DNA of 38,619 nucleotides. Origin: Tranquillimonas alkanivorans (lineage in GTDB: Bacteria > Pseudomonadota > Alphaproteobacteria > Rhodobacterales > Rhodobacteraceae). The stretch lies in contig NZ_FOXA01000024.1 in the NCBI RefSeq assembly GCF_900115595.1, positions 1 through 38,619 of the forward strand, read 5' to 3'. Shown here piece by piece: positions 5,039 to 33,257 of this stretch (positions within the stretch are counted from its first letter, which is position 1; every line of letters begins with the position of its first letter). Made by a program: the position numbers and the translations under genes. The notes under the pieces are model-generated. The model had not been told where the DNA came from. It worked only from the letters and a program-made list of their open reading frames with translations, and did no database searches.

Positions 5039-5123
5039 CGCCCGACGCGCCGCGGCGTGCGGCAAGACTGCTATGAGGGACCGAGCAGGCGGCTGCCGTC
5101 GGCCGCGGTCCCGGGACCGCAAT

Positions 5124-5137
5124 GGAGGCCGATCTTG
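5124..5137 (+). promoter_or_regulatory. Ribosome-binding site fixing a TTG start
   Basis: GGAGG at 5124-5128 is followed by six bases and then TTG at 5135-5137. This spacing is close to ideal. The residues encoded upstream in the same frame have no family resemblance, so TTG is preferred over the ATG at 5057. Confidence 0.7.
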
Positions 5138-6700
5138 AGCGAACCCGCTCCGAACCGTCCGGAACTTCCCCCGGCCATCGCCCGCTTCCTCGGCGATGGC
5201 CCGGCGGGACGGCGCGGGGCGATCTTCGATCTGGACGGCGTGGTCACGCGCACCGCGCGTGTGCACTTCGCGGCGTGGAAGCGCCTTTTCGACGCGTTCC
5301 TGGCGGAGCGGTGGGACGCGGCGCCTTTCACCAAGGAAGACTACCACCGCTACGTCGACGGGCTGCCGCGGTACGACGGAGTCGCGACCTTCCTGCGTGC
5401 GCGGGGGATCTATCTGCCACGCGGGACGCCCTCCGACCCGCCCGAGGCGGAGACGATCTGCGGGCTGGGCAACCGCAAGAACATCCACTTTCGCGAGGCG
5501 CTCCAGCGCGACGGCGTCGACGTCTACCGGAGCACCGTCACGCTGATCGAACGGCTGCATGCGGACGGGTTCGGCACCGCGCTCGTCTCGTCCAGTCGTA
5601 ACGCCCGCGCGGTGCTGGAGGCGGCGGGGCTGACGCGCCTTTTCGATGTGATCCTCGACGGCTCGGACGCGGCGGCGGAGGGGCTCGGCGGCAAACCCGC
5701 CCCCGACATCTTCCTTGCCGCCGCCGCGCGCCTGGGTGTCGAGCCGGCGCGGGCATTCGTCGTGGAGGATGCAACGAGCGGTGTCGCGGCGGCCCGCGCG
5801 GGCGGTTTCGGTCTGGTCATGGGCGTGGACCGGGCCGGACAAGCGCGCGCGCTGCGGGAGGCGGGCGCGGACATCGTGGTGCCGGATCTCGCCGCCACCG
5901 AGGACATGCCTCGGCCCTTCCCCTCGAACCCGGACGACCTGCGGCGGCTCCTGGCAGAGCGAAGGCCGGCGGTCTTCCTCGACTATGACGGAACGCTCAC
6001 GCCCATCGTGGCGCGCCCCGACCTCGCGGTGCTTTCGGACGACATGCGCCGGGCGGTACAGCGGCTCGCCGGGTTGTGCCCCGTCGCGATCGTTTCCGGA
6101 CGGGACCGGGCGGACGTGGAACGCCTCGTCGGGCTCGACGGGCTGATCTACGCCGGAAGTCACGGCTTCGACATCGCCGGGCCGGACGGCCTGCGGATCG
6201 AGCACGACAAGGGCGCCGCGTTCTCCGCCGCGGTGGGGCGTGCTGCGGAGCGCCTGACAGCGGGGCTTGCCGACATCGGGGGCGCACTGGTCGAGCCCAA
6301 GCGGTTCGCCGTCGCCGTTCACTATCGTCAGGTCGCGGAAGCCGATGTTCGGAAGGTCGAGCGGGTGGTCGATGACGTGATCGCCGCCGTGCCGGAGCTG
6401 AAGAAGACCCACGGCAAGAAGGTCTTCGAGCTGCGCCCGCGCTTCGACTGGGACAAGGGCAAGGCGGTGCTGTGGCTGCTGGATGCACTCGACCTCGACC
6501 GTCCCGAGGTTCTGCCGATCTATGTCGGCGACGACGAGACGGACGAGGATGCGTTCCGTGCGCTGACGGCCCGGGGTTCGGGCATCGTCGTCGCCGATCA
6601 CGACCGCCCGAGTGCGGCGCGTTACCGCCTCGAGACCGTCGAGGATGTGGGCCACCTGCTGGATGCACTGGCCGAAACACTGGAGCTGCGTGATGGCTGA
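5135..6700 (+). CDS. Fused beta-phosphoglucomutase-like HAD / trehalose-6-phosphate phosphatase
   Basis: This 521-residue cytoplasmic protein contains two complete HAD phosphotransferase domains. The N-terminal one has FDLDGVV (nucleophile D32, acid/base D34) followed by HFAAWKRLF, the hallmark of beta-phosphoglucomutase, which interconverts beta-glucose 1-phosphate and glucose 6-phosphate. The second starts at [11 protein letters not shown] (D283, D285) and ends with [10 protein letters not shown] (465-474), the OtsB-type phosphatase signature that removes phosphate from trehalose 6-phosphate. The TTG start is supported by an optimal GGAGG. The stop overlaps the GH65 gene by 8 bp, so translation is probably coupled. 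From family knowledge, this HAD-OtsB-GH65 order matches single-chain mycobacterial OtsB1 (Rv2006). No OtsA synthase lies in the window. Domain calls are firm; the activity of each domain is inferred. Confidence 0.9.
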
Positions 6701-9209
6701 GAACCCTTGGGTGCTGTCCTACGACGGGTTTGACCCTGCGGGCGAAAGCCTGCGAGAAGCGCTCTGCACGCTGGGAAACGGGTATTTCGCCACGCGCGGG
6801 GCGGCCGAGGAATCAGAGGCCGACGAGGTGCACTATCCGGGCACGTACCTTGCCGGGGGCTACAACCGGCGCGTCACGGATCTGTCCGGGCGGAGCATCG
6901 AGAACGAGGATCTGGTCAACCTGCCGAACTGGCTGCCGCTCAGCTTCCGGCCCGAGGGCGGCGACTGGCTGAACCTGCGGCGGATGGGGATCCTCGACTA
7001 CCGGCAGAGGCTCGACCTGAAGCGCGGCGTGCTGGAGCGCCACCTCCGGGTGACGGACGGCGCGGGACACGTGACCGCCCTCGCCTTCCGCCGTATCGTG
7101 CACATGCGTCACCCGAACCTTGCCGCCATCGAGATGCGGATCACGCCCGAGACGTGGTCGGGCCGGGTCGAGGTCGCCTCGGCCCTCGACGGACGGGTGA
7201 TCAACGCCGGGGTGGAGCGCTACCGCGAGCTCAACAGCAAGCACCTCGCCCCGCTCGAGGCGCGCGAGGCGGAGGAGCCCGACACGATGCTTCTGGTTGC
7301 CGAAACGAACCAGTCGCACATCCGCATCGCGCAGGCGGCCCGCACCCGTGTCTATCGCGACGGGGCCGAGCCCGCCGTTGAACGGGTCACGGATGTGGAG
7401 GACGATCACGTGGCCCAGACCCTCACGCTCGAGCTTCAGCGCGGAGAGACGCTGAGCGTGGAGAAGACCGTCGCGCTTTTCACCTCGCGCGACCGGGGCA
7501 TCTCGGAACCCGCGCAGGCCGCGCTCCGGGCCACGCGCGAGGCCGGGCGGTTCGAGGACCTGCTGGCCACCCACGTCCAGGCCTGGCAGCTTTTGTGGGA
7601 CCGGGGCGACATCGTCGTGGACCGCCACCCGCGCACCCAGATGATCCTGCGGCTGCACGTGTTCCACCTGCTGCAGACCGTGTCGCCCAACACCATCGAC
7701 CAGGACGCGGGCGTGCCCGCGCGCGGGCTGCACGGCGAGGCCTATCGCGGGCACATCTTCTGGGACGAGCTGTTCATCCTGCCGTATCTCGACTTCCACT
7801 TCCCCGAGATCGCGCGCAGCCTTCTGCTCTATCGCTACCGCCGCCTGCCCGACGCCCGCCGCCTCGCGCGCGAGGCCGGGCTGGCGGGCGCGAAGTTTCC
7901 CTGGCAGAGCGGGTCGAGCGGGCGGGAGGAGAGCCAGGTGCTCCACCTAAACCCGCGCTCGGGGCGCTGGACGCCGGACAACTCGCACATCCAGCGCCAC
8001 GTGGGTGCCGCCATCGCGCTGAACGTCTGGCGCTACTGGCAATCGACCTGCGACCGCGACTTCCTGGGCCAGTACGGCGCCGAGATGCTGATCGAGATCG
8101 CCCGCTTCTGGGCGAGCCTGGCGAAGTGGAACGACGCCACCGGCCGCTACGACATCCGCGGCGTCATGGGCCCCGACGAGTTCCACGACGCCTATCCCTG
8201 GTCCGACGTGCCCGGCCTCGACAACAACGCCTATACCAACGTGCTCGCCGCCTGGGTGCTCCGGCGTGCGGGAGAGGTGCTGGGTCACGTCGAGCCGGTG
8301 CGCAGGAAGGAGCTCGAGCGCCTGCTCGCCCTCGAACCCGAAGAGGTGGCGGGGTGGGGTCGCATCGCCGGCAAGCTGACGCTGCCCTTCATCGACGGCG
8401 GCATCATCGCGCAGTTCGAAGGCTATGACCGGCTGGAAGAGCTGGACTGGGACGGCTACCGCGCGAAATACGGCGACATTCACCGCCTCGACCGCATCCT
8501 CGAGGCCGAGGGCGACAGCGTGAACCGCTACAAGGCGTCCAAGCAGGCCGACGTGCTGATGCTGTTCTACCTGTTCTCGTCGGCCGAGCTGCGCGACCTG
8601 ATCACGGGCATGGGATACGACTTCGACCCGCAGGTGATCCCGCGGACGGTGGATTATTACCTCGCGCGGACATCGCACGGCTCGACGCTCAGCCGGGTGG
8701 TGCATTCGTGGGTGCTGGCCCGCAGCGACCGCGCGCGGTCGTGGGAGCTGCTGAAGGGGGCGCTGGAAAGCGACATCTCGGACATCCAGGGCGGGACCAC
8801 GGCCGAGGGCATCCACCTGGGCGCCATGGCCGGCACGGTGGACCTGGTGCAGCGCGGGCAGACGGGGCTGGAGTTCTACGACGACACGCTCGCGCTCAGC
8901 CCATGCCTGCCGCAAGAGCTTCAGGGGCTCCACCTCGGCCTCATGCACCGCGGCCACTGGCTGCGGCTCGACATAAGCTGCGACGAGGTGCGGGTGGCGG
9001 TTCCGGTGGGGTGGCCGGGGCCGCACCGCATCCGCGTGCGCAACGAGGTTCACGACCTGGCGGCCGGAGAGGAACTGCGCTTCCCCTGCCAGCTTCACGG
9101 CGGCGGATGGCGCCCGGCGCCCGAGGCTTCGCCTCCCGATACGGCCGTTACGACCGAACCAGAGCGAGGGAAGCGCAGTGCGGGCGGCACGCCGACTGGA
9201 TCATCGTGA
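6693..9209 (+). CDS. Glycoside hydrolase family 65 protein (trehalose/disaccharide phosphorylase-like)
   Basis: This 838-residue protein has the full GH65 layout: an N-terminal beta-sandwich, an (alpha/alpha)6 barrel and a small C-terminal beta domain. The predicted general acid is E496 in GVMGPDEFHD, followed by the family motif NNAYTN. The phosphate-binding HGSTLS loop starts at H662, which favours a phosphorylase over a hydrolase. Family enzymes split trehalose, kojibiose, maltose or their phosphates with inorganic phosphate to give beta-glucose 1-phosphate, the substrate of the beta-phosphoglucomutase domain encoded just upstream. The ATG at 6693 lies inside the end of the upstream gene (8-bp overlap), and homology begins right there ([13 protein letters not shown]). 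The last 25 or so residues are low in complexity and not conserved-looking. The exact disaccharide is not deducible. Confidence 0.9.
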   Translation: MAENPWVLSYDGFDPAGESLREALCTLGNGYFATRGAAEESEADEVHYPGTYLAGGYNRRVTDLSGRSIENEDLVNLPNWLPLSFRPEGGDWLNLRRMGILDYRQRLDLKRGVLERHLRVTDGAGHVTALAFRRIVHMRHPNLAAIEMRITPETWSGRVEVASALDGRVINAGVERYRELNSKHLAPLEAREAEEPDTMLLVAETNQSHIRIAQAARTRVYRDGAEPAVERVTDVEDDHVAQTLTLELQRGETLSVEKTVALFTSRDRGISEPAQAALRATREAGRFEDLLATHVQAWQLLWDRGDIVVDRHPRTQMILRLHVFHLLQTVSPNTIDQDAGVPARGLHGEAYRGHIFWDELFILPYLDFHFPEIARSLLLYRYRRLPDARRLAREAGLAGAKFPWQSGSSGREESQVLHLNPRSGRWTPDNSHIQRHVGAAIALNVWRYWQSTCDRDFLGQYGAEMLIEIARFWASLAKWNDATGRYDIRGVMGPDEFHDAYPWSDVPGLDNNAYTNVLAAWVLRRAGEVLGHVEPVRRKELERLLALEPEEVAGWGRIAGKLTLPFIDGGIIAQFEGYDRLEELDWDGYRAKYGDIHRLDRILEAEGDSVNRYKASKQADVLMLFYLFSSAELRDLITGMGYDFDPQVIPRTVDYYLARTSHGSTLSRVVHSWVLARSDRARSWELLKGALESDISDIQGGTTAEGIHLGAMAGTVDLVQRGQTGLEFYDDTLALSPCLPQELQGLHLGLMHRGHWLRLDISCDEVRVAVPVGWPGPHRIRVRNEVHDLAAGEELRFPCQLHGGGWRPAPEASPPDTAVTTEPERGKRSAGGTPTGSS

Positions 9210-21928: not shown

Positions 21929-22654
21929 TCAGATTGCGAGGGTTCCGACACTCGCGCCACCGCAGACGTAAAGCGTCTGGCCCGTGACGAAGCCGTTCTG
22001 CGGATCACAGAAGAACAGGAAGGCGCGGGATACGTCGTCTGCTCGTCCGAGCCGCCCGACGGGAATGCGTTTGGCGAGGTCGGCTTCCTGTTCGCTGCCT
22101 TTCGGCACGATGCCCCAGAAGTTGTCGGTCAGGATCGGCCCCGGCGCGACGACGTTCACGGTGATCCCGTGCTTCGCCAACTCCAGCGCCCAGGTCCTCG
22201 CCATGCCGATCATCCCGGCCTTCGACGCGCCATAGGCCGTACGCGTCGCCGCCCCCAGCGCCGCGCGGGAGGAGTTGAACATCACCCGTCCGAACTGCCG
22301 CTTCTTCATCGCGGGCAGAAACGCCTGCAACAGCGTCAGCGCCGAGCCGAGGTGGAGTTGGGCAAGGCCGGTAATGTCCTCCGGCTTCGCCTCCTCAACG
22401 AGGTTGGGCCAGATGACGCCGGCGTTGTGGACCAGGTGCGTGACCTCGTGGCGGCCGGCGATCTGCTTCGCGGCGGCCTCGACCGCGGCGGGGTCGAGCA
22501 GGTCGCAGGCGACGTGCTCCAGCCGCTCGTGCGTGAAGTCGGGCGCGTGACGGGCGATGCTCACCACGGTATATCCCTGCTCGAGCAGCCGCTGCGCCAG
22601 GTCCGCGCCGATGCCCTTGTTGCCGCCGGTGATGACGGCGGTGTAATCGCTCAT
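21929..22654 (-). CDS. Short-chain dehydrogenase/reductase (canonical, aromatic-cluster operon)
   Basis: This 241-residue classical SDR has the cofactor loop GGNKGIG (10-16), HNAG, the catalytic Ser in NSSRAALG, and YGASKAG with catalytic Tyr and Lys. It ends with the usual FVTGQTLYVCGG segment. It is the last gene of the leftward Rieske/CoA-ligase operon and overlaps the cyclase gene by 4 bp. In such clusters an SDR commonly oxidises a cis-dihydrodiol or a hydroxyacyl-CoA. It contrasts with the degenerate SDR domain encoded two genes upstream. Confidence 0.9.
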   Translation of the reverse strand: MSDYTAVITGGNKGIGADLAQRLLEQGYTVVSIARHAPDFTHERLEHVACDLLDPAAVEAAAKQIAGRHEVTHLVHNAGVIWPNLVEEAKPEDITGLAQLHLGSALTLLQAFLPAMKKRQFGRVMFNSSRAALGAATRTAYGASKAGMIGMARTWALELAKHGITVNVVAPGPILTDNFWGIVPKGSEQEADLAKRIPVGRLGRADDVSRAFLFFCDPQNGFVTGQTLYVCGGASVGTLAI

Positions 22655-23433
22655 GCCCCCTCCTTCGGCACCAGGGCCAGCACCCGAAGCGGGCTGCCCG
22701 TGCCGTTTCTGATCTTCAGCGGCGCGGCCATCAGGATCGCGCCGGTCGCCGGTAGCCGGTCCAGCCCCTTGAGGCATTGCAGACCGTACTTCCCCGCCCC
22801 GTGCAGGTAGTAGTGCGCCGGGAACGGGGGCGAGTAGTGCATCCCCTGCCCCGCGTCGGTGCCCACCGTCTCGGTTCCGAAGCCGCGGATGTGGCGCTCT
22901 TCGATCAGGAAGCGGATCGCGTCGGGCGTCGGCCCCGGCGAATGCGCCCCGTCCTCGCGCATGTTGAGGTACTCCGCCCCCGACCGCTTCGACCAGTCGG
23001 TGCGCATCAGCACCCAGGCGTCGGCGGGGATGGGGCCGTGCCCGGCCTCCCACGCCTCGATCGCCTCGACCGTCAGTTCGAAATCCTCGTCCTCGGCCGC
23101 GCCCTCCGAGCAGTCGATGACGCAGACCGGGCCGACGAAGGCCTCGGGCGGGATCTCGTCCACCGCGCCGTTCGCCACGTCGCGGCCCGAGACCCAGTGC
23201 ACCGGCGCGTCGAAATGGGTGCCCGTGTGCTCGGACATGGAGATGTTGTGCCACTTCCACGACGGGCCACGGTGATCGTAGGCCGAGACCTCCTCCATCC
23301 GGAAACGCGCGCATTGCCCGAACTCGGGCGGCAGGACGATCACCGGGAAATCGGGGTCGAGCGTGTGGGTCAGGTCCACCACCTCGACCGCGCCGCCCGC
23401 CAGCGCGGCGGCGAGATCCGTCAGCACGCTCAT
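22651..23433 (-). CDS. Cyclase-family (kynurenine formamidase-like) metal-dependent hydrolase
   Basis: This 260-residue protein belongs to the PF04199 cyclase/formamidase family. The metal motif HTGTHFDAPVH is visible at H69, H73, D75 and H79, with FGTETVGTDAG and a late HYYLHGAGKYGLQCL segment that supplies the usual second histidine. Members hydrolyse formamides, lactones or ring-cleavage products, so a hydrolysis step late in the pathway is a fair inference. It overlaps its neighbours by 4 bp on both sides. No signal peptide is present. Confidence 0.87.
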   Translation of the reverse strand: MSVLTDLAAALAGGAVEVVDLTHTLDPDFPVIVLPPEFGQCARFRMEEVSAYDHRGPSWKWHNISMSEHTGTHFDAPVHWVSGRDVANGAVDEIPPEAFVGPVCVIDCSEGAAEDEDFELTVEAIEAWEAGHGPIPADAWVLMRTDWSKRSGAEYLNMREDGAHSPGPTPDAIRFLIEERHIRGFGTETVGTDAGQGMHYSPPFPAHYYLHGAGKYGLQCLKGLDRLPATGAILMAAPLKIRNGTGSPLRVLALVPKEGA

Positions 23434-24680
23434 CCCTCGCCCCCCGTCAGTTCGCGTTCCAGCACCTTCGGATTCTGCCGCCAGCGCTCGACCAGATCGC
23501 GCGCGACGTCGCCGCACCAGACCTCCTCCAACCCGTCGCGAAGCCCGGCGACGACCGCGCGGGCCACCGCGTTCGGCGTGACCTTCGGCGGCGGAACCGC
23601 CTGGTGCCAGTCGTCCTCGGTCGGCCCGGAAAAGACGTTCATCACCCGCACGCCGCCCGGCCGAAGCTCGGCCCGAAGCGCCTGGGACAGCGACAGCGCT
23701 GCCGCGTTCGACGCCGCGAAGGAGCCATAGGCGGGGTCGTTCGACAGCGCGTGGACCGACAGCAGGTTCACCCAGGCCACCGCGTTGTTCACACCGTCCG
23801 CGCCGCGCGACCGCATCGCCGGGCCGAAGGCCTGCGCCAGCCGCATGAGACCGAGGTAGTTCACCTCCATCTCCTCGCGCGCGAAGGTCGTGTCGCCCCG
23901 CTCGAACAGGCCGCCGGGGCGGACGAAGCGGGCGTTGTTGATCAGGATGTCGGTCTTGCCGCCGATCTCGCCCGCCAGTTCCTTCACCGAGGTCGTGTCG
24001 GTCACGTCGAGCGGCAGGAGCGTGACGTGCTCCATCGCCGCCAGCTTCGCGCGCTGCGGATAGGGCCGCCAGCCTTCGGCTTCGCCCACGAAGACCTGCG
24101 CCGCGCCCGCGTCGAGCAGCGCGCGGGCCAGCGCCGGGGCGTTGTCCTGCCGGGCGTCGGTGATCAGCACGCGGCGGTGCTTCGGATCCGCCGTCAGTTC
24201 GCGGAGTTCGGGATCGTCGGCCATGTTCGGTGTCCCCTCCTTCGGCAGCGCCATCAGCACCCCCTGCCCGGCGCGGTCCAGCCGGTTGATCAGCCGCACC
24301 TCGGCGCCCTTCTCGCAGTCGCCATGCACGTGGCAGACGACGGACGGGCCGGCTGCCAGCCGCACGGTGCCGGTGCGCCAGGGCGTCCGGTCGCGGAAAT
24401 AGAGGTTGGGTGAGGCGCGCACGACGGTGACGGCGATGAGCTCGCCGCTCGGATCGGTGTCGCGCCACGGGAGCTTCGTGGACAGGCAGGAACAGCAGGC
24501 GTCGCGCGGCGGGTACTGGACCGTGCCGCACTCGGCGCAGTGCTGGAGCATGAAGCGTCCCTCCGCGGCGGCGGCGGTCAGCCCCATCGCCGCACGGCTG
24601 CGGATGCCCGGCGGCAGCGTCGGGACGCGCTGCGCCTTCTGCGGGTTCTTCTTCGGCGGCGGCGAGAGCGGATCGGTCAT
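23430..24680 (-). CDS. DUF35 (Zn-ribbon/OB-fold) fused to a degenerate short-chain dehydrogenase
   Basis: This 416-residue protein joins two parts. Residues about 35-150 form a DUF35 acyl-CoA-binding module: a rubredoxin-like zinc ribbon with C48, C51, C62 and C65, then an OB-fold. Residues about 168-400 have SDR-like secondary structure, but the cofactor glycine loop reads TDARQDNA instead of TGxxxGxG, and the position of the catalytic Tyr/Lys reads FAASNAA instead of YxASKAA. Redox activity is therefore doubtful, and a structural or substrate-binding role is more likely. DUF35 proteins partner thiolase-fold enzymes, and such a gene lies next to it (4-bp overlap). The nearest known logic is the Ltp2-ChsH2 retro-aldolase of steroid side-chain degradation, where DUF35 is fused to a MaoC domain instead. 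Confidence 0.82.
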   Translation of the reverse strand: MTDPLSPPPKKNPQKAQRVPTLPPGIRSRAAMGLTAAAAEGRFMLQHCAECGTVQYPPRDACCSCLSTKLPWRDTDPSGELIAVTVVRASPNLYFRDRTPWRTGTVRLAAGPSVVCHVHGDCEKGAEVRLINRLDRAGQGVLMALPKEGTPNMADDPELRELTADPKHRRVLITDARQDNAPALARALLDAGAAQVFVGEAEGWRPYPQRAKLAAMEHVTLLPLDVTDTTSVKELAGEIGGKTDILINNARFVRPGGLFERGDTTFAREEMEVNYLGLMRLAQAFGPAMRSRGADGVNNAVAWVNLLSVHALSNDPAYGSFAASNAAALSLSQALRAELRPGGVRVMNVFSGPTEDDWHQAVPPPKVTPNAVARAVVAGLRDGLEEVWCGDVARDLVERWRQNPKVLERELTGGEG

Positions 24681-25849
24681 GCGTCGCCTCCGGTGATGAC
24701 CGCCGCGCCCGAGCAGAGGCCGCGGTCGTAGTTGATCATGCCGAAGCCGGACACCAGCGCGCGCTTCGCGCCTCGCACCTGCGTCGGACCGGCTTGCCCC
24801 GTCACCTGCCGCAGCGCTTCGACCAAACCGAGGAATCCGCCCCCGGCCCCCGCCTGACCGGCAGACAGCTGCCCGCCCGAGGTGTTGTGCGGCAGGTCGC
24901 CCGTCACTTTCAGGTCACGCTCGCGCAGGAAGGCCGGCGCCTCGCCCTTGCCGCAGAAGCCGAGGTCCTCGAACTGCATCATCGAGATCACGGGATAGTC
25001 GTCATAGGTCTGCACAAGGTCCATGTCCCGCGGCGCGCAGCCCGCCATCTGCCAAAGCTCGTCCACGTCCACCGCCCAACCGCCGCGCAGCTGGATCGGG
25101 TCGTCGGGAAACGCGTTGTGCCGCTCGGTGGTCGCGGAAATGCGGGCGAAGGGAAGGTTCCGGCGCACCGCCTCGTCCTCGCGCATCACCAGGAATGCCT
25201 CGGCCCCGGCGCAGGGCATCACGCAGTCGAACAGCGCGATCGGGTCCGAGATGGGGCGCGCGTTCAGATAATCCTTCATCGTCAGCGGCTTCTTCATCAG
25301 CGCGTGCGGGTATCTCAGCGCATTGTCGCGCTGCGCCACGCAGATGCGGCCGAAGTCTTCGCGGGCTGCGCCGTACTCCTGCATGTATCGGTCGGTCAGC
25401 AGCGCGAACATCGCGTTCGGGCCGCCGTAGCCATAGGGGTACGCCGCATCCATCGCGAAGCGCGAAAAGCTGGAGAGCAGCTTGCGGAAACTGTCGATCT
25501 GGTTGGTATCGCCCGCCACGCAAGCCACGATGTCGGCGTCCCCCGCCTGCACCGCCCGCGCCGCGCGCCGCACCGCCACCACGCCGCTCGCCCCGCCCAT
25601 CGGGATCGAGTCGAGCCAGCGCGGGCTAAGGCCCAGGTGCTGGGTCAGCCCGACCGGCGTGTCGGGAAACAGCGTGAAGCTGGCGACCGAGAAGCCGTCG
25701 ATCTGCTCCTTACTCAGCCCCGCCGCATCGAGCGTTCCCTTCAGGCCGCGCGCCAGCCAGTGATGGGCGGTTTCAGTCGAATACCGCTCGTACGGCACGC
25801 TGTGCGGCGCGGCGAGGACGACGCCGTCATAGGCTTGCCTTCGGCTCAT
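24677..25849 (-). CDS. Thiolase-fold (SCP-2/lipid-transfer-like) protein lacking the thiolase Cys and His
   Basis: This 390-residue protein has the thiolase fold of the SCP-2 branch: MGGASGVVAVRRAA near 84-97, QTYDDYPVISMMQFEDLGFC (280-299), NTSGGQLSAGQ (322-332) and a C-terminal LCSGAAV. The nucleophilic Cys position carries S88, and the active-site His of the SAGH motif is Q332, so ordinary thiolysis is not expected. Y282 and C379 remain. Members of this branch that pair with DUF35 proteins include the Ltp2 aldolase, which cuts a C-C bond without coenzyme A. A DUF35 gene is immediately downstream and a CoA ligase immediately upstream, each with a 4-bp overlap. Retro-aldol cleavage of an acyl-CoA side chain is the inferred role. 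Confidence 0.85.
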   Translation of the reverse strand: MSRRQAYDGVVLAAPHSVPYERYSTETAHHWLARGLKGTLDAAGLSKEQIDGFSVASFTLFPDTPVGLTQHLGLSPRWLDSIPMGGASGVVAVRRAARAVQAGDADIVACVAGDTNQIDSFRKLLSSFSRFAMDAAYPYGYGGPNAMFALLTDRYMQEYGAAREDFGRICVAQRDNALRYPHALMKKPLTMKDYLNARPISDPIALFDCVMPCAGAEAFLVMREDEAVRRNLPFARISATTERHNAFPDDPIQLRGGWAVDVDELWQMAGCAPRDMDLVQTYDDYPVISMMQFEDLGFCGKGEAPAFLRERDLKVTGDLPHNTSGGQLSAGQAGAGGGFLGLVEALRQVTGQAGPTQVRGAKRALVSGFGMINYDRGLCSGAAVITGGDA

Positions 25850-27468
25850 GCCGCCTGCCGTTTCTTGAGACTGCGGGTGTCCACTGTCGCCGGGTCGTCC
25901 AGAAGCTCGGCCGCCAGCGCCTTGAGCGCCGCGCGCTGGATCTTGTTGGTCGCCGTCAGCGGCAGGTCCTGCACGAAGGCGACGTAGCCCGGCACCTTGT
26001 AATAGGCGATCTGGCCAAGCGCCCAGTCCACGATCTCGCGCGCCAGCCCCTCGGACGGCGTCTCGACCTTGAGGCAGGCGAACACCTCGTCGCCCCGCAC
26101 CTCGTCCGGCACGGCGGCGACACCCGCGGCCTTGATCGCCGGGTGGCGCATCAGGACGGACTCGACCTCGACGGCGGCGATGTTCTCGCCCGAGCGGCGG
26201 ATGACGTTCTTCTTGCGGTCCACGAAGACCATGTCGCCCGACGGCTCCTGCCGCACCACGTCGCCGGTGTGGAACCAGCCGCCCTGCCAGACCTTCGCGG
26301 TCTCCTCGGGGTTCTTCCAGTACTCGGTGAAGAACCCTTGGCGCGGGTCGTCGCCCGCATGGCGCACCAGCAGCTCGCCCGGCGTGCCGGGGGCCACGTC
26401 CTGCCCGGCGTCATCGACAACGCGGACGTCCAGCTCTGGCCCCGGACGGCCGAAGCAGGCCTGGCCCACGCGGCGCGGCTCGTGGTTCGCGGCGATCACC
26501 GAGCCCGCGCCGGTTTCGGTCATCGCCCAGGCTTCCATCAGCGGGAAGCCGAAGCGGCGCTCGAACGCGGCGTGCAGCTTCGGATCGACGCCTGCGCCGA
26601 AGCCGAAGCGGACGGCGTGCGCGCGGTCCGACGGCGCCTCGGGCGCACCCATCAGCATCGACGGCATGACGCCCAGGTAATGCAGGCAGGTCGCGCCACT
26701 TTCGCGGACAGATGCCCACCAGCTGCGCGGGTGGAAGCGGTCGAGCGCGGTCAGACAGCCCCCCACGGCGATCATCGCCATGAAGGAATAGGCCATGGCG
26801 TTCATGTGGAAGATCGGCAGCGGCGTGAGCATCCGCTCGCCGTCCTCGTTCAGGGCGCAGACGCCGCCGGCGTTCGCGTACCAGCGTCCGGCCTCGAGGA
26901 AATAGGTGTTCGACAGCACGCAGCCCTTGGGCCGCCCCGTCGTCCCCGAGGTGTAGAGCATCGCCGCCTCGCGCGCGGCGTCCGGCCCGTCCGAGTCGAA
27001 CACCGGACCGCCCTGCGCCTGCGGCAGAGGCTCGCCCGGCGCGCAGACCGGCAGCGTCAACCCGGCCGCCTGCCCGGCGGCGCGCAACTCCTCGACCCGC
27101 GGGGGGATCGCGATGGCGAGCGCGGGTTCGGCATGGGCCGCCATGTATTCCAGTTCGGCGGCGCGCAGATCCGGGTTCACCGGGACGACCGACAGACCGA
27201 GCGCGTTCAGCGCCAGCCAGTGCAGGAAGAAGTCCGGCCGGTTCTCGAGCAGCAGCATCACGCGCTGCCCGGCGCGGTAGCCCGCCGCCTCGAACGCGGC
27301 GCGCAGTGTCTCCACCCGCTCGGCGGCTTGCCCGTAGCCCATTTCGCCCGGCTCCGTTCCGTAGATCGCCGCCGTCTCGGGCAGGACGTTCAGGATGGGG
27401 CGGTCGGGCCAGCGCCGCGCCGCCTCGGCGAAGGCGGCGTGGACGGTGTTCAGGTCCACGGGCCTCAT
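25846..27468 (-). CDS. Acyl-CoA synthetase (AMP-forming)
   Basis: This 540-residue ANL-superfamily ligase activates a carboxylic acid to its CoA thioester through an acyl-AMP. It has the P-loop MLYTSGTTGRPKGC, an AWAMTETG motif (A5), the hinge DRKKNVIRRSGENI, and the C-terminal catalytic lysine in LPLTATNKIQRAAL. Length and motifs are complete. The start at 27468 overlaps the Rieske beta-subunit stop by 4 bp, and the stop overlaps the thiolase-fold gene by 4 bp. A CoA ligase between an oxygenase and a DUF35/thiolase pair suggests that an aromatic or alicyclic acid is processed as its CoA ester. The acid is not identifiable from the sequence. Confidence 0.93.
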   Translation of the reverse strand: MRPVDLNTVHAAFAEAARRWPDRPILNVLPETAAIYGTEPGEMGYGQAAERVETLRAAFEAAGYRAGQRVMLLLENRPDFFLHWLALNALGLSVVPVNPDLRAAELEYMAAHAEPALAIAIPPRVEELRAAGQAAGLTLPVCAPGEPLPQAQGGPVFDSDGPDAAREAAMLYTSGTTGRPKGCVLSNTYFLEAGRWYANAGGVCALNEDGERMLTPLPIFHMNAMAYSFMAMIAVGGCLTALDRFHPRSWWASVRESGATCLHYLGVMPSMLMGAPEAPSDRAHAVRFGFGAGVDPKLHAAFERRFGFPLMEAWAMTETGAGSVIAANHEPRRVGQACFGRPGPELDVRVVDDAGQDVAPGTPGELLVRHAGDDPRQGFFTEYWKNPEETAKVWQGGWFHTGDVVRQEPSGDMVFVDRKKNVIRRSGENIAAVEVESVLMRHPAIKAAGVAAVPDEVRGDEVFACLKVETPSEGLAREIVDWALGQIAYYKVPGYVAFVQDLPLTATNKIQRAALKALAAELLDDPATVDTRSLKKRQAA

Positions 27469-27947
27469 GGCAGAAGCTGGATGTTGCCGAAGGCCGCGTC
27501 GCAGTTGAGGATGTCCACCCGCTTCTGCGCGATCTTCAGCTTGCCATCTCGCAGCACCAGGTCGTGCCGGGCGCTGAGCGCCAGCAGGAACTGTTCGTCG
27601 AGCCGGGTTTCGACGTAATGCATCTGCGTCGTCGTGACGTAGCGCCCGGCGTCGTGGTCCATCTCGTCCACGTAGGGGCGCTGGATCACGTGGTGACAGC
27701 GGCTCTTGGGCTTTTGACTGAAGGTGCGGGCGCCATTCAGCCGCTCGACCCGCAGGCGCAGCATGAACTGGTCCTCGTACATCAGCGACGTCTCGTGGAT
27801 CGGGTCCTGCTGCTTGTAGTCGAGCGGCATCCAGTACATGCCGTCCTCGGTCCAGAGCGTGAGCCACTCGTCAAAGCGGCCCTCGTCCAGCATGCGGACC
27901 TCCTCGTACAGGAAGTCGATCAGGTCGTCCTTGCTCGGCGTGCTCAT
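27465..27947 (-). CDS. Aromatic-ring-hydroxylating dioxygenase beta subunit
   Basis: This 160-residue protein has the cystatin-like cone fold of ring-hydroxylating dioxygenase beta subunits: the N-terminal FLYEEVRMLDEGRFDEWL helix, the MYWMPLDY strand, the RLRVERLNGARTFSQKP segment, and a C-terminal KRVDILNCDAAF strand. It has no cofactor of its own and stabilises the catalytic alpha subunits, usually as an alpha3beta3 hexamer. It overlaps the alpha gene by 4 bp (ATGA), supporting 1:1 synthesis. Confidence 0.93.
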   Translation of the reverse strand: MSTPSKDDLIDFLYEEVRMLDEGRFDEWLTLWTEDGMYWMPLDYKQQDPIHETSLMYEDQFMLRLRVERLNGARTFSQKPKSRCHHVIQRPYVDEMDHDAGRYVTTTQMHYVETRLDEQFLLALSARHDLVLRDGKLKIAQKRVDILNCDAAFGNIQLLP

Positions 27948-29284
27948 TCCGCGGCCTCCAGGTTTTCGGGCATCGTGGCCGTCATGAACTTCACCCATGC
28001 GTGAAACTGGTTGCGCATCTGGCGCTCGGTCGTGCCGTTCTCGACCGCCTCCTGCTCCAGGTCCTCGCCCTCGTCGTAAAGCCGCTGCACGTTGACCCAT
28101 TCCAGCCCGTCGGCGGCCAGACCCTCCTGCGCGCGCTCGTACATCTCGAGGTCGTCGTGACCGACGATCGAGGTGGGGGCGTTGATCATGCGATTGTACA
28201 TCGCCGTGCGGGCAACGAGTTGCTCGGGCGCGTCCACCAGCCGGAAGATCCAGCTTTCCACCAGCGTCTTGTCCGGGCCCAGCGGGATGAAGTTCCGAAG
28301 CTGCTGGATCGGGCCCTTGATCATGATGTTCGGGAAATAGACCGTGTTGTGCCGGTTCTCGCCCAGGATCTCCTTCGCCCGCTCCTCGCCGTAGGCCTCC
28401 TTCATCTGGTCGAAGTAGCCCGGGATCTCGGAGTAGTCCGAGTGGATCGAGTGGTGCACGCCGGTGTGCCCGTGGCCGTTGGGCCAGGTACGGATGCCCA
28501 TTTCCTCGAAGAACTCGTAAGGCGACATGAACGGCGCGATGATCTGCATCGCGGCCGGCTTGGGCGCATCGGCGTCGTGGCCCATCTCCTCCCAGATCTT
28601 CACCGCCGTCCCGGCCGAGCTTTCGTGCGCGACCATCGGATGGCAGGTGTCGGTCTGGTTCTCGACCAGCATCTTCCAGTTGCAGCGGTGCATGTAGCGC
28701 AGCGGCTGCCCCGCCACCTCGAGCCGCCCGGCGGGCGAGCGGTCCACCATGTTGTCGAGCGAGCTGAGCGAGCCGCCGAAGAACTCTTCGAAGCCGATGC
28801 CTTCTTCGTTGAGCCGCGCGAAGACGAAACCGCGGTAGTTCTTCACCGCGCCCACGGCCTTCATGCCCTTGCCGCTTTCGGTCTTGTCGAGGCCCGTGCC
28901 CTCGTAGCCCTTCTTCAGCGGGATCGCCAGGAGGCAGCCGTCGGTCTTGAACGACCAGGCGTGATAGGGGCAGCGGAAGAACTTGCCGGTGTTGCCCGTG
29001 CGGTCGATGGCGATCTTGGTGCCCTTGTGGGGGCAGCGGTTGTAGAGGACCTTCACCTCGCCGTCCGAATGCCGGACCATGATCACCGGCTGGTCGCCGA
29101 TCTGCGTGGTGTAGTAATCGCCCTTGTTCGGCACCTGGCTGTCGTGGCCGACATAGACCCAGGTGTTGGCGAACAGGTGGTCCATCTCGAGCCGATAGAC
29201 CTCGGGGTCGATATACACGTCGCGATGCACCTGAAAGGGTGTCACCAGCGCCTCGACGGCGCTGCGGGTGGCGTATCGGGTCAT
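27944..29284 (-). CDS. Rieske non-heme iron oxygenase alpha subunit
   Basis: This 446-residue catalytic subunit inserts oxygen into an aromatic or related ring. The Rieske [2Fe-2S] ligands are C84/H86 (RCPHKG) and C105/H108 (RCPYHAW). The mononuclear iron site is H215 and H220 in DTCHPMVAH, with the bridging D212 and a third ligand among D377/D378 in GHDDLEMYER. A strong AGGAGAA lies right before the ATG. Fifteen bases separate it from the upstream reductase gene, and the beta subunit overlaps its end. Residues that set substrate choice cannot be interpreted here. Benzoate-, anthranilate- or phthalate-type acids are plausible because a CoA ligase and a TRAP acid importer are linked. Confidence 0.95.
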   Translation of the reverse strand: MTRYATRSAVEALVTPFQVHRDVYIDPEVYRLEMDHLFANTWVYVGHDSQVPNKGDYYTTQIGDQPVIMVRHSDGEVKVLYNRCPHKGTKIAIDRTGNTGKFFRCPYHAWSFKTDGCLLAIPLKKGYEGTGLDKTESGKGMKAVGAVKNYRGFVFARLNEEGIGFEEFFGGSLSSLDNMVDRSPAGRLEVAGQPLRYMHRCNWKMLVENQTDTCHPMVAHESSAGTAVKIWEEMGHDADAPKPAAMQIIAPFMSPYEFFEEMGIRTWPNGHGHTGVHHSIHSDYSEIPGYFDQMKEAYGEERAKEILGENRHNTVYFPNIMIKGPIQQLRNFIPLGPDKTLVESWIFRLVDAPEQLVARTAMYNRMINAPTSIVGHDDLEMYERAQEGLAADGLEWVNVQRLYDEGEDLEQEAVENGTTERQMRNQFHAWVKFMTATMPENLEAAE

Positions 29285-29299: not shown

Positions 29300-30256
29300 T
29301 CACAGGTCGAGCTTCAGGCGCGCCGACTTGGCGCGGCTCACGCAGATCTGCATGACCTTGCCGCTGGCGCGCTCGGCGTCCGAGAGCACCACGTCGCGGT
29401 GGTCCGGTTCCCCCTCCAGCACGTCGGTCTGGCAGATGCCGCAGTCGCCGCGCTGGCAGTCATAGATCAGGTCCTCGCCCGCCTCTTCGAGCACGTCGAT
29501 GATGCTCTTGCCCGGCGGGATGGTATAGACCTTGCCGGTCGAGGCGACCTCGACCTCGAAAGCCGTGTCGCCCTCCTGGTCGGCGGGGGCGTCGAACAGT
29601 TCGAAGTGGATGCGGTCGTTCGGGAAGCCCGCCGCCTCGGCCACCTGCCGCGCGGCCTCGATCATCGGCTTCGGACCGCAGACGTAGAGGTGCGCGTTCG
29701 GATCGGCCGCCCCGATGATCGCCTTCAGGTCCAGCGGTCCGCCGGCCTCGTCGTCGAAGTGCAGGCTCAGCCGCTCGCCGTGAATCTCGTCCAGGCGATC
29801 GGTGAAGGCGGCGGCGGAGCGGTCGCGCATGGCATAGTGCAGCGCGTAATTCCGCCCGGCATCCTTCAGAGCAGTGGCCATCGAAATGATCGGCGTGACC
29901 CCGATGCCGCCCGCGATCAGCACCGCCGGGGCATCGCCGTCGGCCAGCGGAAAGTCGTTCTTCGGCACGTCGGCGGTGACGGTATCACCCTCCTTGAGCC
30001 CGTGCATGAAACGCGAGCCGCCGCGGCTCTCCTCCTCCAGCCGCACGCCGAAGCGATAGGCGGCGGGTGCGGCGCAGTCGCCGTCGAAGTCGATCAGGCT
30101 GTAGGGCCGTGTCGCGCCGTCGGGCAGGTGTATCTCCATGTGCGCGCCGGCGGTATAGCCCGGCAGCGCCGCTCCGTTCGCGGGCACCAGCACGACCGAA
30201 CGGATGCGCTCGGCCGGTGATTCCACGCGGACCACCCTGAGTTCGATTGACGCCAT
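29300..30256 (-). CDS. Oxygenase reductase, phthalate dioxygenase reductase type (flavin, NAD, C-terminal 2Fe-2S)
   Basis: This 318-residue electron-transfer protein passes electrons from NAD(P)H to the Rieske oxygenase. The flavin motif is R50-P-Y-S53, the NAD motif is GGIGVTP (116-122) with CGPKPM near 193-198, and the C-terminal plant-type [2Fe-2S] cluster uses C267, C272, C275 and C305. I chose the ATG at 30256 because GGGAGG precedes it; the 21 extra residues upstream are not family-like. It is the first gene of the leftward catabolic operon, facing the TRAP operon across a 172-bp region with palindromes. A ferredoxin-last reductase paired with an alpha/beta oxygenase is an uncommon pairing. 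Confidence 0.94.
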   Translation of the reverse strand: MASIELRVVRVESPAERIRSVVLVPANGAALPGYTAGAHMEIHLPDGATRPYSLIDFDGDCAAPAAYRFGVRLEEESRGGSRFMHGLKEGDTVTADVPKNDFPLADGDAPAVLIAGGIGVTPIISMATALKDAGRNYALHYAMRDRSAAAFTDRLDEIHGERLSLHFDDEAGGPLDLKAIIGAADPNAHLYVCGPKPMIEAARQVAEAAGFPNDRIHFELFDAPADQEGDTAFEVEVASTGKVYTIPPGKSIIDVLEEAGEDLIYDCQRGDCGICQTDVLEGEPDHRDVVLSDAERASGKVMQICVSRAKSARLKLDL

Positions 30257-30366: not shown

Positions 30367-30395
30367 TTGTCAGGCCGGAACGCATGCGCTTAGGC
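30367..30395 (+). promoter_or_regulatory. Possible promoter of the TRAP/MarR operon
   Basis: TTGTCA (30367-30372) is followed after 17 bases by TTAGGC (30390-30395), about 33 bp before the DctP start. The -35 is good but the -10 is weak. Confidence 0.3.
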
Positions 30396-30428
30396 TCGCG
30401 GCAAAAGATCGCAACAGGGAGCGAAATA

Positions 30429-31454
30429 ATGAAGCGAATCGCAACGACCCTCGCCACAAGTGCGCTCGCGCTCACCGCGCTGACCGCCGCGGCCGCCGCG
30501 CAGGAGACCACGCTGCGGGTGTCGAACTGGCTGCCGCCGTCCCACCCCATCGTGAAAGACATCGTGCAGCCGTGGGCCGAGCAGGTCGAGGAAGCCACCG
30601 AGGGCCGGGTCGAGGTGCAGATCCTCGACGCCCCGCTGGGCCCGCCGCCCGCGCACTTCGACCTTGCCGCCACTGGTGCCGCCGACGTCACCTTCGGGGT
30701 TCACGGCTACACGCCCGGCCGCTTCGCTCTGACCGACATTGCCGAACTTCCGTTCCTGACCCCCAGTGCCGAGGCGCTCTCGGTCGGCCTCTGGCGGCTC
30801 CACGAGAACATGCTGGCAGAGCAGAACGAGCACGAGGGCGTGAAGGTGCTGGCGCTCTGGGGCCACGGACCCGGCCACCTGTTCACCACCGGCGGCGACG
30901 TCACGCCGCTTGATGCGCTGGAGGGTGCGAAGGTCCGCGTGGCCGGAGCCGTCACCAATCAACTGGCCGAGGAGATGGGCATGGTGCCGCTTCAGGCCCC
31001 CGCCCCGCAGACGTACGAGCTGCTTTCGGGCGGCGTGGCCGACGGCATCTTCTTCCCCTATGAGTCGATCCCGTTCTTCAAGCTCGACTCCATCATCGAA
31101 AAGGGACTGCGCGTCCCCGGCGGCCTTTACAACGTGTCGTTCTTCTTCGTGATGAACGAGGGCACCTGGAACGAACTGTCGGAGGAGAACAAGGCGGCCA
31201 TCGACAGCGTCTCGGGCGAGCCTCTCGTGCGCATGGCCGGTCAGGCTTGGGACAACGCCGACGCCGCGGGGCTCGAGGCCATCAGGGACACCGTTGAGTT
31301 CCATGACGCGACCGATGCCGAGATGGAGGAGATCCGCGCCGAGGCGCAGGCCATCTACGACGCCGTGCGCGAAAAGGTCGAGGCGAAGGGCGTCGATTTC
31401 GACGCGGCGCTGCAGATGCTTCAGGACGAAACGGCGAAGGTCGCTTCTGAATGA
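30429..31454 (+). CDS. TRAP transporter solute-binding protein (DctP-type)
   Basis: This 341-residue periplasmic receptor starts with a signal peptide (MKRIATTLATSALALTALTA, cleaved after AAA). It has the DctP layout, including the NWLPPSHPIVKDIVQPWAEQ start, the GAKVRVAGAVTNQL segment whose arginine usually binds a ligand carboxylate, and the late FFFVMNEGTWNELSEENK block. Such receptors bind organic acids and hand them to the DctQM membrane parts, driven by a sodium gradient. The ATG at 30429 follows an AGGGAG site; the frame upstream lacks signal-peptide character. The gene diverges from the Rieske operon, so the ligand is probably that pathway's substrate. Confidence 0.94.
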   Translation: MKRIATTLATSALALTALTAAAAAQETTLRVSNWLPPSHPIVKDIVQPWAEQVEEATEGRVEVQILDAPLGPPPAHFDLAATGAADVTFGVHGYTPGRFALTDIAELPFLTPSAEALSVGLWRLHENMLAEQNEHEGVKVLALWGHGPGHLFTTGGDVTPLDALEGAKVRVAGAVTNQLAEEMGMVPLQAPAPQTYELLSGGVADGIFFPYESIPFFKLDSIIEKGLRVPGGLYNVSFFFVMNEGTWNELSEENKAAIDSVSGEPLVRMAGQAWDNADAAGLEAIRDTVEFHDATDAEMEEIRAEAQAIYDAVREKVEAKGVDFDAALQMLQDETAKVASE

Positions 31455-31969
31455 CCCACGACAAGACCGGAGCAGGGCGCCGCGTGCGCGCCCTGCGCCA
31501 AACCTTCCGTCGGATCACTGCGGTGCTCACCGGCGTCCTCCTTCTCGCGTTGACCGGTGTCACGCTCGTGGACGTGCTGGGCCGCTACTTCTTCTCGAGC
31601 CCCCTGCCCGGCGCGTCCGAGATGACGGAGTTGCTGGTGATGGCCATCGTGTTCGCGGGCCTCCCGGCGATATGCCTCGACGACGGGCACATCACGGTTG
31701 ACCTGTTCACGGCGCAGCTTGAAGGGCGCGCGGCCGAGATCCAGACCATGGCCGGCCGGCTGGTCGTCGCGCTGATGCTCGCCATCGTCTCTTGGCAGTT
31801 GTGGGAGCACGGCACCCGCCTCGGCTCCTACGGCGAGACGACCATCTACCTCCGCTTTTCCCTTTCCCCCGTGGCCAAGGCCGCAAGCGCGCTGTGCGGT
31901 GCGTCCGCGCTCATCGTGTTCGCGATGGCCGTGATGTGCCTGCCCAAGGGCGTTTCCGAGGACATCTGA
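31451..31969 (+). CDS. TRAP transporter small membrane subunit (DctQ-type)
   Basis: This 172-residue membrane protein has four predicted helices and the family's GRYFFSSPLPGASEMTELLV segment near residue 45, followed by LDDGHITVDLF. It pairs with the large DctM subunit. Its ATG overlaps the DctP stop by 4 bp and the next gene begins one base after its stop, so the three subunits should be made together. Confidence 0.92.
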   Translation: MTHDKTGAGRRVRALRQTFRRITAVLTGVLLLALTGVTLVDVLGRYFFSSPLPGASEMTELLVMAIVFAGLPAICLDDGHITVDLFTAQLEGRAAEIQTMAGRLVVALMLAIVSWQLWEHGTRLGSYGETTIYLRFSLSPVAKAASALCGASALIVFAMAVMCLPKGVSEDI

Positions 31970-31970
31970 C

Positions 31971-33257
31971 ATGGATTGGCCGATCGGGCTGGCCCTTCTT
32001 CTGGGTCTCATCTTCGCGGGCGTTCCCATCGCCTTCGCGCTCTCGGGTATCGGGCTGATCGGCGTGATCAGCATAATCGGACTCGACCCTGCACTGGCGA
32101 TGCTGGGACAGATCTACTTCGACAGCGGGCGCAGCTATACCCTGTCGGTGGTTCCGCTGTTCCTGCTGATGGGCAACTTCATCGTGCAGTCCGGCATCGC
32201 GTCCGAGCTATACGATGCTGCGAATGCCTGGCTGCGCCACCGCAAGGGCGGCCTGGCGATGGCGACCATCGTGGCCTGCGGCGGCTTTTCGTCGGTCTGC
32301 GGCTCGTCGTTGGCCACAACGGCAACCATGGGCCGCATAAGCCTGCCCGCGATGCGGCGCTACGGCTATTCCGACCGGCTCGCTGCCGCTTCGGTGGCCG
32401 CCGGTGGGACGCTTGGAATCTTGATTCCGCCGTCGGTAATCCTGGTGATCTACGGCATCCTCACCCAGCAGGACATCGGCAAGCTGTTCCTCGCCGGTCT
32501 CGTTCCCGGCCTGATCGGCGTGCTCTTTTACATCGGTGCGGTGCGCCTGTCGCTCGCGGTGCATCCCGAGAATCTGGAAACGATGGAGAAGCTGTCGCTG
32601 CGGGACCGCCTGCGCGCGACGAAAGGCGTGGCCGGCGCGCTGGTTCTCTTCGTCTGGGTCCTCGGAGGCATCTACCTCGGCGTATTCACCGCGACCGAGG
32701 CCGCGGGCATGGGCGCGGGCGGCGCGATCCTGATCACCGCACTGCGCCGGCAACTCACGTGGCGCAACACGCTGGTGACATTATTCGACACCGCCAAAAC
32801 GACCGCAGTGATGTTCTTCATTCTGTTCGGGGCGCTCTATTTCCTGAATTACGTCAACCTGTCCGGCCTGACGAGCGATTTGCGCGACTGGATCATGGCG
32901 CTCGGCGTCGGGCGCATCCCGGTCATCCTGATGATCATCGTGCTGTTCCTGGTGCTGGGCTGCCTGCTGGAAAGCCTGTCGATGATCCTGCTGACCGTGC
33001 CGGTGCTGTTTCCCATCGTCGCCGACCTGGGCTTCGATCTGATCTGGTTCGGCGTGTTCGTCGTCGTGGCGACCGAGCTCAGCTACATCACGCCGCCCAT
33101 CGGAATGAACGTGTTCGTCATGCGCATCGTGGCGCCGGATATCCCTCTGCAGCGTGTCTTCGCCGGCGTCCTGCCTTTCGTCTTCGTTGACATCCTTCGG
33201 TTGTTGCTGCTGATAGCGGTTCCCGCCCTCGTTCTGTTTGTGCCGAACTCAATGTGA
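31971..33257 (+). CDS. TRAP transporter large membrane subunit (DctM-type)
   Basis: This 428-residue protein has about 12 membrane helices and the DctM landmarks GVPIAFALSGIG, FLLMGNFIVQSGIA, the CGSSLATTATMG loop, GGTLGILIPPSVILVIYGI, and the late SYITPPIGMNVFVM. It forms the transport path of a sodium-coupled organic-acid importer. The stop overlaps the MarR start region (TGATG). Confidence 0.95.
   Translation: MDWPIGLALLLGLIFAGVPIAFALSGIGLIGVISIIGLDPALAMLGQIYFDSGRSYTLSVVPLFLLMGNFIVQSGIASELYDAANAWLRHRKGGLAMATIVACGGFSSVCGSSLATTATMGRISLPAMRRYGYSDRLAAASVAAGGTLGILIPPSVILVIYGILTQQDIGKLFLAGLVPGLIGVLFYIGAVRLSLAVHPENLETMEKLSLRDRLRATKGVAGALVLFVWVLGGIYLGVFTATEAAGMGAGGAILITALRRQLTWRNTLVTLFDTAKTTAVMFFILFGALYFLNYVNLSGLTSDLRDWIMALGVGRIPVILMIIVLFLVLGCLLESLSMILLTVPVLFPIVADLGFDLIWFGVFVVVATELSYITPPIGMNVFVMRIVAPDIPLQRVFAGVLPFVFVDILRLLLLIAVPALVLFVPNSM

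Follow-up and report, generated by a model that had tools for sequence, protein, structure and literature searches.

IadG and IadH, a thiolase-fold protein and a DUF35 fusion protein from an auxin degradation operon, as a probable retro-aldolase

Introduction

In what appears to be the auxin degradation (iad) operon of Tranquillimonas alkanivorans, two adjacent genes encode proteins that resemble a thiolase and a dehydrogenase and that lack the catalytic residues of both, which raises the question of what reaction the pair carries out. The genes, iadG and iadH, lie on the minus strand of a 38,619-nucleotide stretch (contig NZ_FOXA01000024.1, positions 1 to 38,619), here called the window. IadG has a thiolase fold, and IadH joins a DUF35 region (a zinc ribbon and an OB fold) to a short-chain dehydrogenase/reductase (SDR) fold. 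Our analysis indicates that IadG and the DUF35 domain of IadH very probably cleave dioxindole-3-acetyl-coenzyme A (CoA) into isatin and acetyl-CoA; this reading is based on homology, residues, predicted fold, tree, and synteny, and the substrate, the proton steps, and the complex are inferred from them.

Root growth is influenced by bacteria that degrade auxin, and transfer of the iad pathway to other root bacteria is under way for the benefit of plants; in the same study, removal of the acetyl side chain was assigned from annotation (PMC12633357). A retro-aldolase would offer a redox-free path to isatin with named residues, and would suggest that DUF35-bound aldolases extend past steroids and that many annotated thiolases may be C-C lyases. 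No aldolase proposal for the iad pathway was found in the literature searched, outside of which most subscription journals lay, and we claim no priority.

Results

IadG groups with aldolases rather than with thiolases. The initial annotation had noted a DUF35-SDR fusion next to a thiolase-fold protein in this part of the window, and both open reading frames (ORFs) are intact and overlap by 4 nucleotides (nt). The features that bear on their function are as follows.

24677..25849, minus strand: iadG, thiolase-fold protein of 390 amino acids (aa), proposed catalytic subunit of the retro-aldolase (Gly86, Tyr282, Asp284, Gln332, Arg198)
25592..25594, minus strand: codon for Gly86 of iadG, at the alignment position where true thiolases have the nucleophile Cys
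24998..25006, minus strand: codons in iadG for Tyr282 (proposed catalytic base), Asp283, and Asp284 (proposed acid)
23430..24680, minus strand: iadH, protein of 416 aa that fuses DUF35 (zinc ribbon plus OB fold) with an SDR fold that is catalytically dead; the proposed IadG partner
24270..24575, minus strand: DUF35 part of iadH, approximately residues 36 to 137, zf-ChsH2 and OB_ChsH2_C, with C48, C51, C62, and C65
23550..24185, minus strand: dead SDR part of iadH, approximately residues 166 to 377, with the TDARQDNA loop and F321/N325

IadG matches a single Pfam family (PF22691, Thiolase_C_1). Its nearest PDB chain by sequence is Sal of Comamonas testosteroni (CtSal; 9MYR), at 3e-50 by phmmer and 5.7e-69 with a profile, and a Foldseek search with the predicted fold (mean predicted local distance difference test [pLDDT] score of 87; predicted template modeling score of 0.90; residues 118 to 142 and 372 to 375 below 50) returned Sal (9MYR) and Ltp2 (6OK1) at ranks 1 to 3. 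In a tree obtained by a quick search, with Shimodaira-Hasegawa-like approximate likelihood ratio test (SH-aLRT) support and without bootstrap, IadG forms one clade (SH-aLRT, 100), and the Sal clade is its sister (98). Both lie in a group carrying Gly and Tyr at two thiolase active-site positions; this group is split from the Cys thiolases at 100. The tree included 41 paralogues, with copies removed, that derive from an NF005892 search among relatives and from 40 regions hand-picked from its results.

The active-site residues were compared by profile alignment to the thiolase 7YVY and by a residue map, and their conservation was followed in a set of homologues from which sequences were dropped if the best match was less than 38% identical, if no stop codon was seen, or if the length differed from the reference by over 45 aa; these filters removed locus L038, L006 was excluded as a copy of the window, and near-copies were kept. 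The thiolase nucleophile Cys aligns with IadG Gly86, the equivalent of CtSal Gly89, and Gly86 is present in 105 of 106 IadG homologues. The initial annotation had placed Ser88 at this position. Ser88 was rejected as a substituted nucleophile, since Gly86 is what aligns with Cys and position 88 is variable (S in 93, C in 6, A in 5, and G in 2 of the 106). The initial annotation's assignment of Gln332 to the thiolase His position was borne out by the residue map, in which Gln332 corresponds to the inert Gln352 of Sal. With the nucleophile Cys replaced by Gly86 and the His by Gln332, IadG lacks what defines a CoA-dependent thiolase, and in the tree it stands apart from the Cys thiolases.

The catalytic Tyr of its aldolase relatives is retained. 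Tyr282, invariant in 106/106 homologues, maps to the catalytic Tyr302 of Sal and Tyr294 of Ltp2, Arg198 maps to Sal Arg216, and Asp284 takes the position of the Sal acid, Cys304. The motif that contains Tyr282 and Asp284, YDDY (Tyr282-Asp283-Asp284-Tyr285), was overlooked in the initial annotation and occurs in all 116 IadG sequences; when IadG was aligned with the 41 paralogues and with 5 fragments from the PDB, none of these had Asp at the Asp284 position. In Sal the base is Tyr302 and the acid is Cys304, and in Ltp2 the corresponding residues are Tyr294 and Tyr344 (PMC12329534). Neither known acid, Sal Cys304 or Ltp2 Tyr344, is found in IadG, which has Asp284 and Gln332 at these positions, so that IadG is not strictly a Sal or an Ltp2. 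Most likely, IadG-IadH is one of the DUF35-bound aldolases and works with a Tyr-Asp pair, set apart from Sal and Ltp2 by the replacement of the known acid.

The same evidence bears on the possibility that IadG-IadH, with its thiolase fold, acts as a thioesterase or an acyltransferase, comparable to PhlABC, and breaks no C-C bond. PhlC-type acylases do have the same fold and a DUF35 partner; PhlC, however, ranks below Sal and Ltp2 in the Foldseek search, appearing first at rank 35 (5M3K_C). Acyl transfer on the thiolase fold relies on the nucleophile Cys, the position held by Gly86 in IadG, and we regard this explanation as extremely improbable.

A side observation concerns the paralogues themselves (L119 to L173). 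In 27 of the 41 distinct thiolase-family sequences, the nucleophile Cys is replaced by Gly, and the HDxF motif begins with Tyr instead of His (YDAF, YDSF, YDCF, and others); many adjoin a DUF35 gene; the sample leans to the query family model. Judged from their sequences, these 27 are likely not thiolases.

IadH combines an intact DUF35 part with a dead SDR fold. Pfam recognizes three domains in IadH: PF12172 zf-ChsH2 (residues 36 to 70), PF01796 OB_ChsH2_C (72 to 130), and PF00106 adh_short (171 to 360). The four zinc ribbon/OB-fold cysteines read in the initial annotation (C48, C51, C62, and C65) are real, being invariant in all 108 IadH homologues kept, and the DUF35 part is nearest, weakly, to the ChsH2 DUF35 chain of 6OK1 (E value of 2.7e-5). 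In a single-chain prediction, the remainder is a plain SDR fold (mean pLDDT for IadH, 91; best structural match, the SDR 5U4S). Also as read before, TDARQDNA occupies the glycine loop and F321/N325 replace the Tyr/Lys pair. TGxxxGxG or YxxxK was found in the expected stretches of 0/108 IadH homologues, and none of 117 sequences with an SDR part had them by a strict pattern. In 21/108 (Variovorax included) the Lys is kept, in none of these the Tyr, and in those listed the first Gly is Asp. Both motifs are present in 70/70 sequences of IadJ, the SDR encoded in the same operon (loose pattern), and 14 of 20 free-standing relatives pass a strict pattern, so that the motif test can separate live from dead. 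An intact SDR in IadH was accordingly rejected, as the motifs are absent from the expected stretches; a triad elsewhere in the model was not looked for.

The SDR domain of IadH most likely has no redox chemistry and is a structural or docking remnant. Two loci weaken the idea that it is essential for the pathway. At L224 (L224:6092-17331), which is iad-like (identities of 47% for D, 50% for F, 58% for G, 56% for I, and 51% for J), a free-standing DUF35 protein of 157 aa is encoded directly before a live IadJ and there is no dead SDR; because DUF35 stands alone here, the dead SDR is not essential everywhere. At L035, the SDR part of an IadH relative of 366 aa (L035:12004-13101) is not recognized by Pfam, which from its sequence looks like further decay of the dead domain. 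In L224, two genes with thiamine pyrophosphate-enzyme and 2-oxoacid:ferredoxin oxidoreductase domains also follow the isatin hydrolase gene.

The pair is part of a conserved iad operon. The initial annotation saw a Rieske pathway around the two genes and overlooked the known iad operon, of which the following members flank iadG and iadH.

29300..30256, minus strand: iadC, PDR/VanB-type reductase (ATG picked as start; ORF open to 30319)
27944..29284, minus strand: iadD, Rieske dioxygenase alpha subunit (with PDB chain matches)
27465..27947, minus strand: iadE, Rieske dioxygenase beta subunit
25846..27468, minus strand: iadF, AMP-forming acyl-CoA ligase, proposed source of dioxindole-3-acetyl-CoA
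22651..23433, minus strand: iadI, isatin hydrolase (PF04199), nearest to isatin hydrolase A (PDB 5NNA/5NNB)
21929..22654, minus strand: iadJ, SDR with TGGNKGIG and YGASK intact, proposed dehydrogenase yielding dioxindole-3-acetate (role according to PMC12633357)

The eight genes run from 30256 to 21929, with 4-nt overlaps at 6 of the 7 junctions. IadD is nearest to PDB chains 9O71 (E value of 9.9e-174), described as IadDE in a 2025 preprint (PMC12633357), and 7YLS (1e-171); IadI is nearest to isatin hydrolase A (5NNA/5NNB; 2.9e-147), the closest solved relative of a neighboring gene product rather than of the pair. The auxin degradation locus of Variovorax has the order iadCDEFGHIJ (PMC12633357), and the window agrees with it in both gene set and order, identifying the operon, by sequence and synteny, as the iad operon. 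The CL014 locus of Variovorax paradoxus, compared by description, has this order too (PMC12633357). Three Variovorax loci (L097 to L099) contain all eight genes in the order of the window; their G and H proteins are 61 to 63% and 55 to 56% identical to those of the window, and the SDR is dead there as well.

Conservation was surveyed in named loci that are the best 80 of at least 483 relatives found with one pattern; they are biased toward close relatives and contain H by construction. The locus of strain DSS-3 is L031. On the same strand, the end of G lies no more than 400 nt upstream of H in 73/73 loci with room, and of 103 pairs in which both genes are complete, 91 have a G-H gap of -4 nt. 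On the downstream side, the start of I is no more than 400 nt from H in 75 of 76 loci with room, the exception (L088) being approximately 3 kb off. Among the 54 of the 80 loci with full 10-kb flanks, G and I were found in 54, J in 50, D, E, and F in 48 each, and C in 46; all eight genes, by identity thresholds, were present in 44, and D to J followed the window order on one strand in 44. More broadly, with the window's genome counted each time, IadG was detected at an E value of ≤1e-60 in 22/248 genomes of the family, full-length IadH in at least 8/398 genomes of the phylum (one with an internal stop), and near full-length IadH in at least 8/385 genomes of the class, plus two partial copies and one free-standing DUF35; the phylum and class scans scored up to four first-look candidates per genome, making these counts lower bounds.

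Discussion

The mode of action of IadG-IadH is most likely that of Sal-Shy and Ltp2-ChsH2, aldolases of the same branch. Sal-Shy(DUF35), the bile acid side-chain aldolase of C. testosteroni (9MYR), shares with IadG-IadH the thiolase fold, the Gly in place of Cys, the catalytic Tyr, the Gln at the His position, and the DUF35 partner, and its clade is the sister of the IadG clade; it differs in having YDCY with the acid Cys304 where IadG has Asp284, a steroid substrate, and a MaoC-DUF35 hydratase as the partner instead of a DUF35-SDR fusion. Ltp2-ChsH2(DUF35), a steroid side-chain aldolase (6OK1), likewise has the thiolase fold, the catalytic Tyr, and the DUF35 partner, and the hydroxyl of its substrate is also on a ring carbon (C17) (PMC12329534). 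It differs in the YDHF motif, the second catalytic Tyr (Tyr344), and the C3 steroid side chain, and ChsH2 differs from IadH in that its DUF35 is fused to a MaoC domain without catalytic residues, which pairs with ChsH1 (PMC11321319). By analogy with this pairing, the dead SDR of IadH might dock toward IadJ, which is a guess. The initial annotation had suggested that a thiolase-fold protein linked to DUF35 serves a Rieske pathway as a C-C lyase for a CoA ester, and that a dead SDR takes the place of the MaoC domain of ChsH2/Shy. Sequence profiles, the predicted fold, the tree, and the residue map support this suggestion, as do synteny and the chemistry of the pathway.

The reaction can be placed in the pathway as follows. 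IadCDE and IadJ would oxidize auxin to dioxindole-3-acetate (DOAA), as reported for Variovorax (PMC12633357), and IadF would form its CoA thioester, dioxindole-3-acetyl-CoA, in which the hydroxyl at the beta position is tertiary. By comparison with Sal and Ltp2, an IadG dimer flanked by IadH DUF35 domains would bind the thioester; according to the residue map, Tyr282 would deprotonate the hydroxyl at C3, the bond between C3 and CH2 would break, and Asp284 would protonate the acetyl-CoA enolate, giving isatin and acetyl-CoA. IadI, closely related to characterized isatin hydrolases, would then open isatin to isatinate, en route to anthranilate. Isatin, the product expected from retro-aldol cleavage, is the substrate of the family to which the product of the next gene, IadI, belongs.

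A different scheme has been published, in which IadG as a ketothiolase and IadH as an alcohol dehydrogenase, both labels taken from annotation, jointly bring about a "reductive removal" of the acetyl side chain that yields C8H7NO2, a mass that does accumulate without iadI (PMC12633357). In IadG, however, Gly86 and Gln332 stand where a thiolase has its nucleophile Cys and its His, and the SDR motifs are found in none of the 108 IadH sequences, against all 70 of IadJ. In addition, the substrate is a tertiary alcohol, which cannot be oxidized to the 3-keto thioester required by a thiolase; because the carbon that carries its beta-hydroxyl bears no hydrogen, dioxindole-3-acetyl-CoA cannot become the thiolase's ketone. 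No enzyme of the operon was seen that would reoxidize dioxindole ahead of the isatin hydrolase, and retro-aldol cleavage involves no redox step. Residues and chemistry together argue against the two labels, and we consider the ketothiolase/dehydrogenase scheme very improbable.

Published metabolite data can be read with retro-aldol cleavage in mind. Deletion of iadF, iadG, iadH, or iadI in Variovorax leads in each case to accumulation of C10H9NO4 (DOAA) (PMC12633357), which fits G and H acting in one joint step. Cultures of Variovorax were found to contain dioxindole, isatin, and isatinic acid (PMC9613470), and DOAA, isatin, and isatinic acid were reported for Pseudomonas sp. LY1, in which a gene cluster of another makeup is also named iad (PMC8383072). 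A C8H7NO3 compound that is not N-formylanthranilic acid according to its authors (PMC12633357) has the formula of isatinic acid. We also observed that C10H11NO4, reported in the same preprint, is the formula of a 2,3-dihydrodiol of auxin, a usual type of Rieske dioxygenase product, in which case IadJ would be a diol dehydrogenase; its authors favor an epoxide and hydration, given water labeling (PMC12633357).

Several observations weigh against a retro-aldolase that makes isatin from auxin. C8H7NO2, the formula of dioxindole, builds up in Variovorax without iadI (PMC12633357), where retro-aldol cleavage predicts isatin (C8H5NO2), and a reduction to dioxindole by other cell enzymes has to be assumed. 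All activity of CtSal was lost in the C304A, C304S, and C304H variants (PMC12329534), and for this reason Asp284 remains a putative acid. Two features of Sal are unmatched, as Gln161 aligns with IadG Pro144 and Gly391 with Met371, and residues 118 to 142 of IadG are poorly predicted. Finally, two loci, L033 (L033:9159-13218) and L035 (L035:9189-13104), carry a ligase-IadG-IadH set with neither an isatin hydrolase nor IadDE relatives within approximately 25 kb, and G-H-I loci occur without IadDE relatives nearby (L062, L065, L082, L225 to L228, and L231 to L233; the sequence pieces that carry L225, L227, and L233 are short).

The substrate of the L033 and L035 sets may differ, and not every IadG-IadH member need act on auxin. 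It is conceivable from these loci that the pair is an aldolase of the same fold for another beta-hydroxyacyl-CoA, derived from another indole or aromatic acid, with the link to auxin incidental. The window, however, has the full iad set, its IadD is nearest to IadD structures, and its IadI is nearest to isatin hydrolases, and we find this alternative very improbable. Cleavage of dioxindole-3-acetyl-CoA is the reading that we retain. A tentative extension, which we consider rather unlikely as a whole, is that IadG-IadH represents a third type of chemistry within the DUF35-bound aldolases, in which Tyr and Asp together cleave the thioester of a tertiary aromatic alcohol, with a pseudo-SDR replacing the fused MaoC domain and docked on live IadJ, such that ring oxidation and side-chain removal take place in one assembly.

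Two further features of the window were noted. Genes for a TRAP transporter (DctP, DctQ, and DctM) lie at 30384-33254, divergent from iadC, and TRAP genes are close to the operon in L029, L030, and L036 as well; the transporter is a candidate uptake system for auxin-like acids. Elsewhere, at 5060-9209, one protein has a HAD domain (PF00702) and, after it, a trehalose-phosphatase domain (PF02358) and is encoded beside a GH65 family protein.

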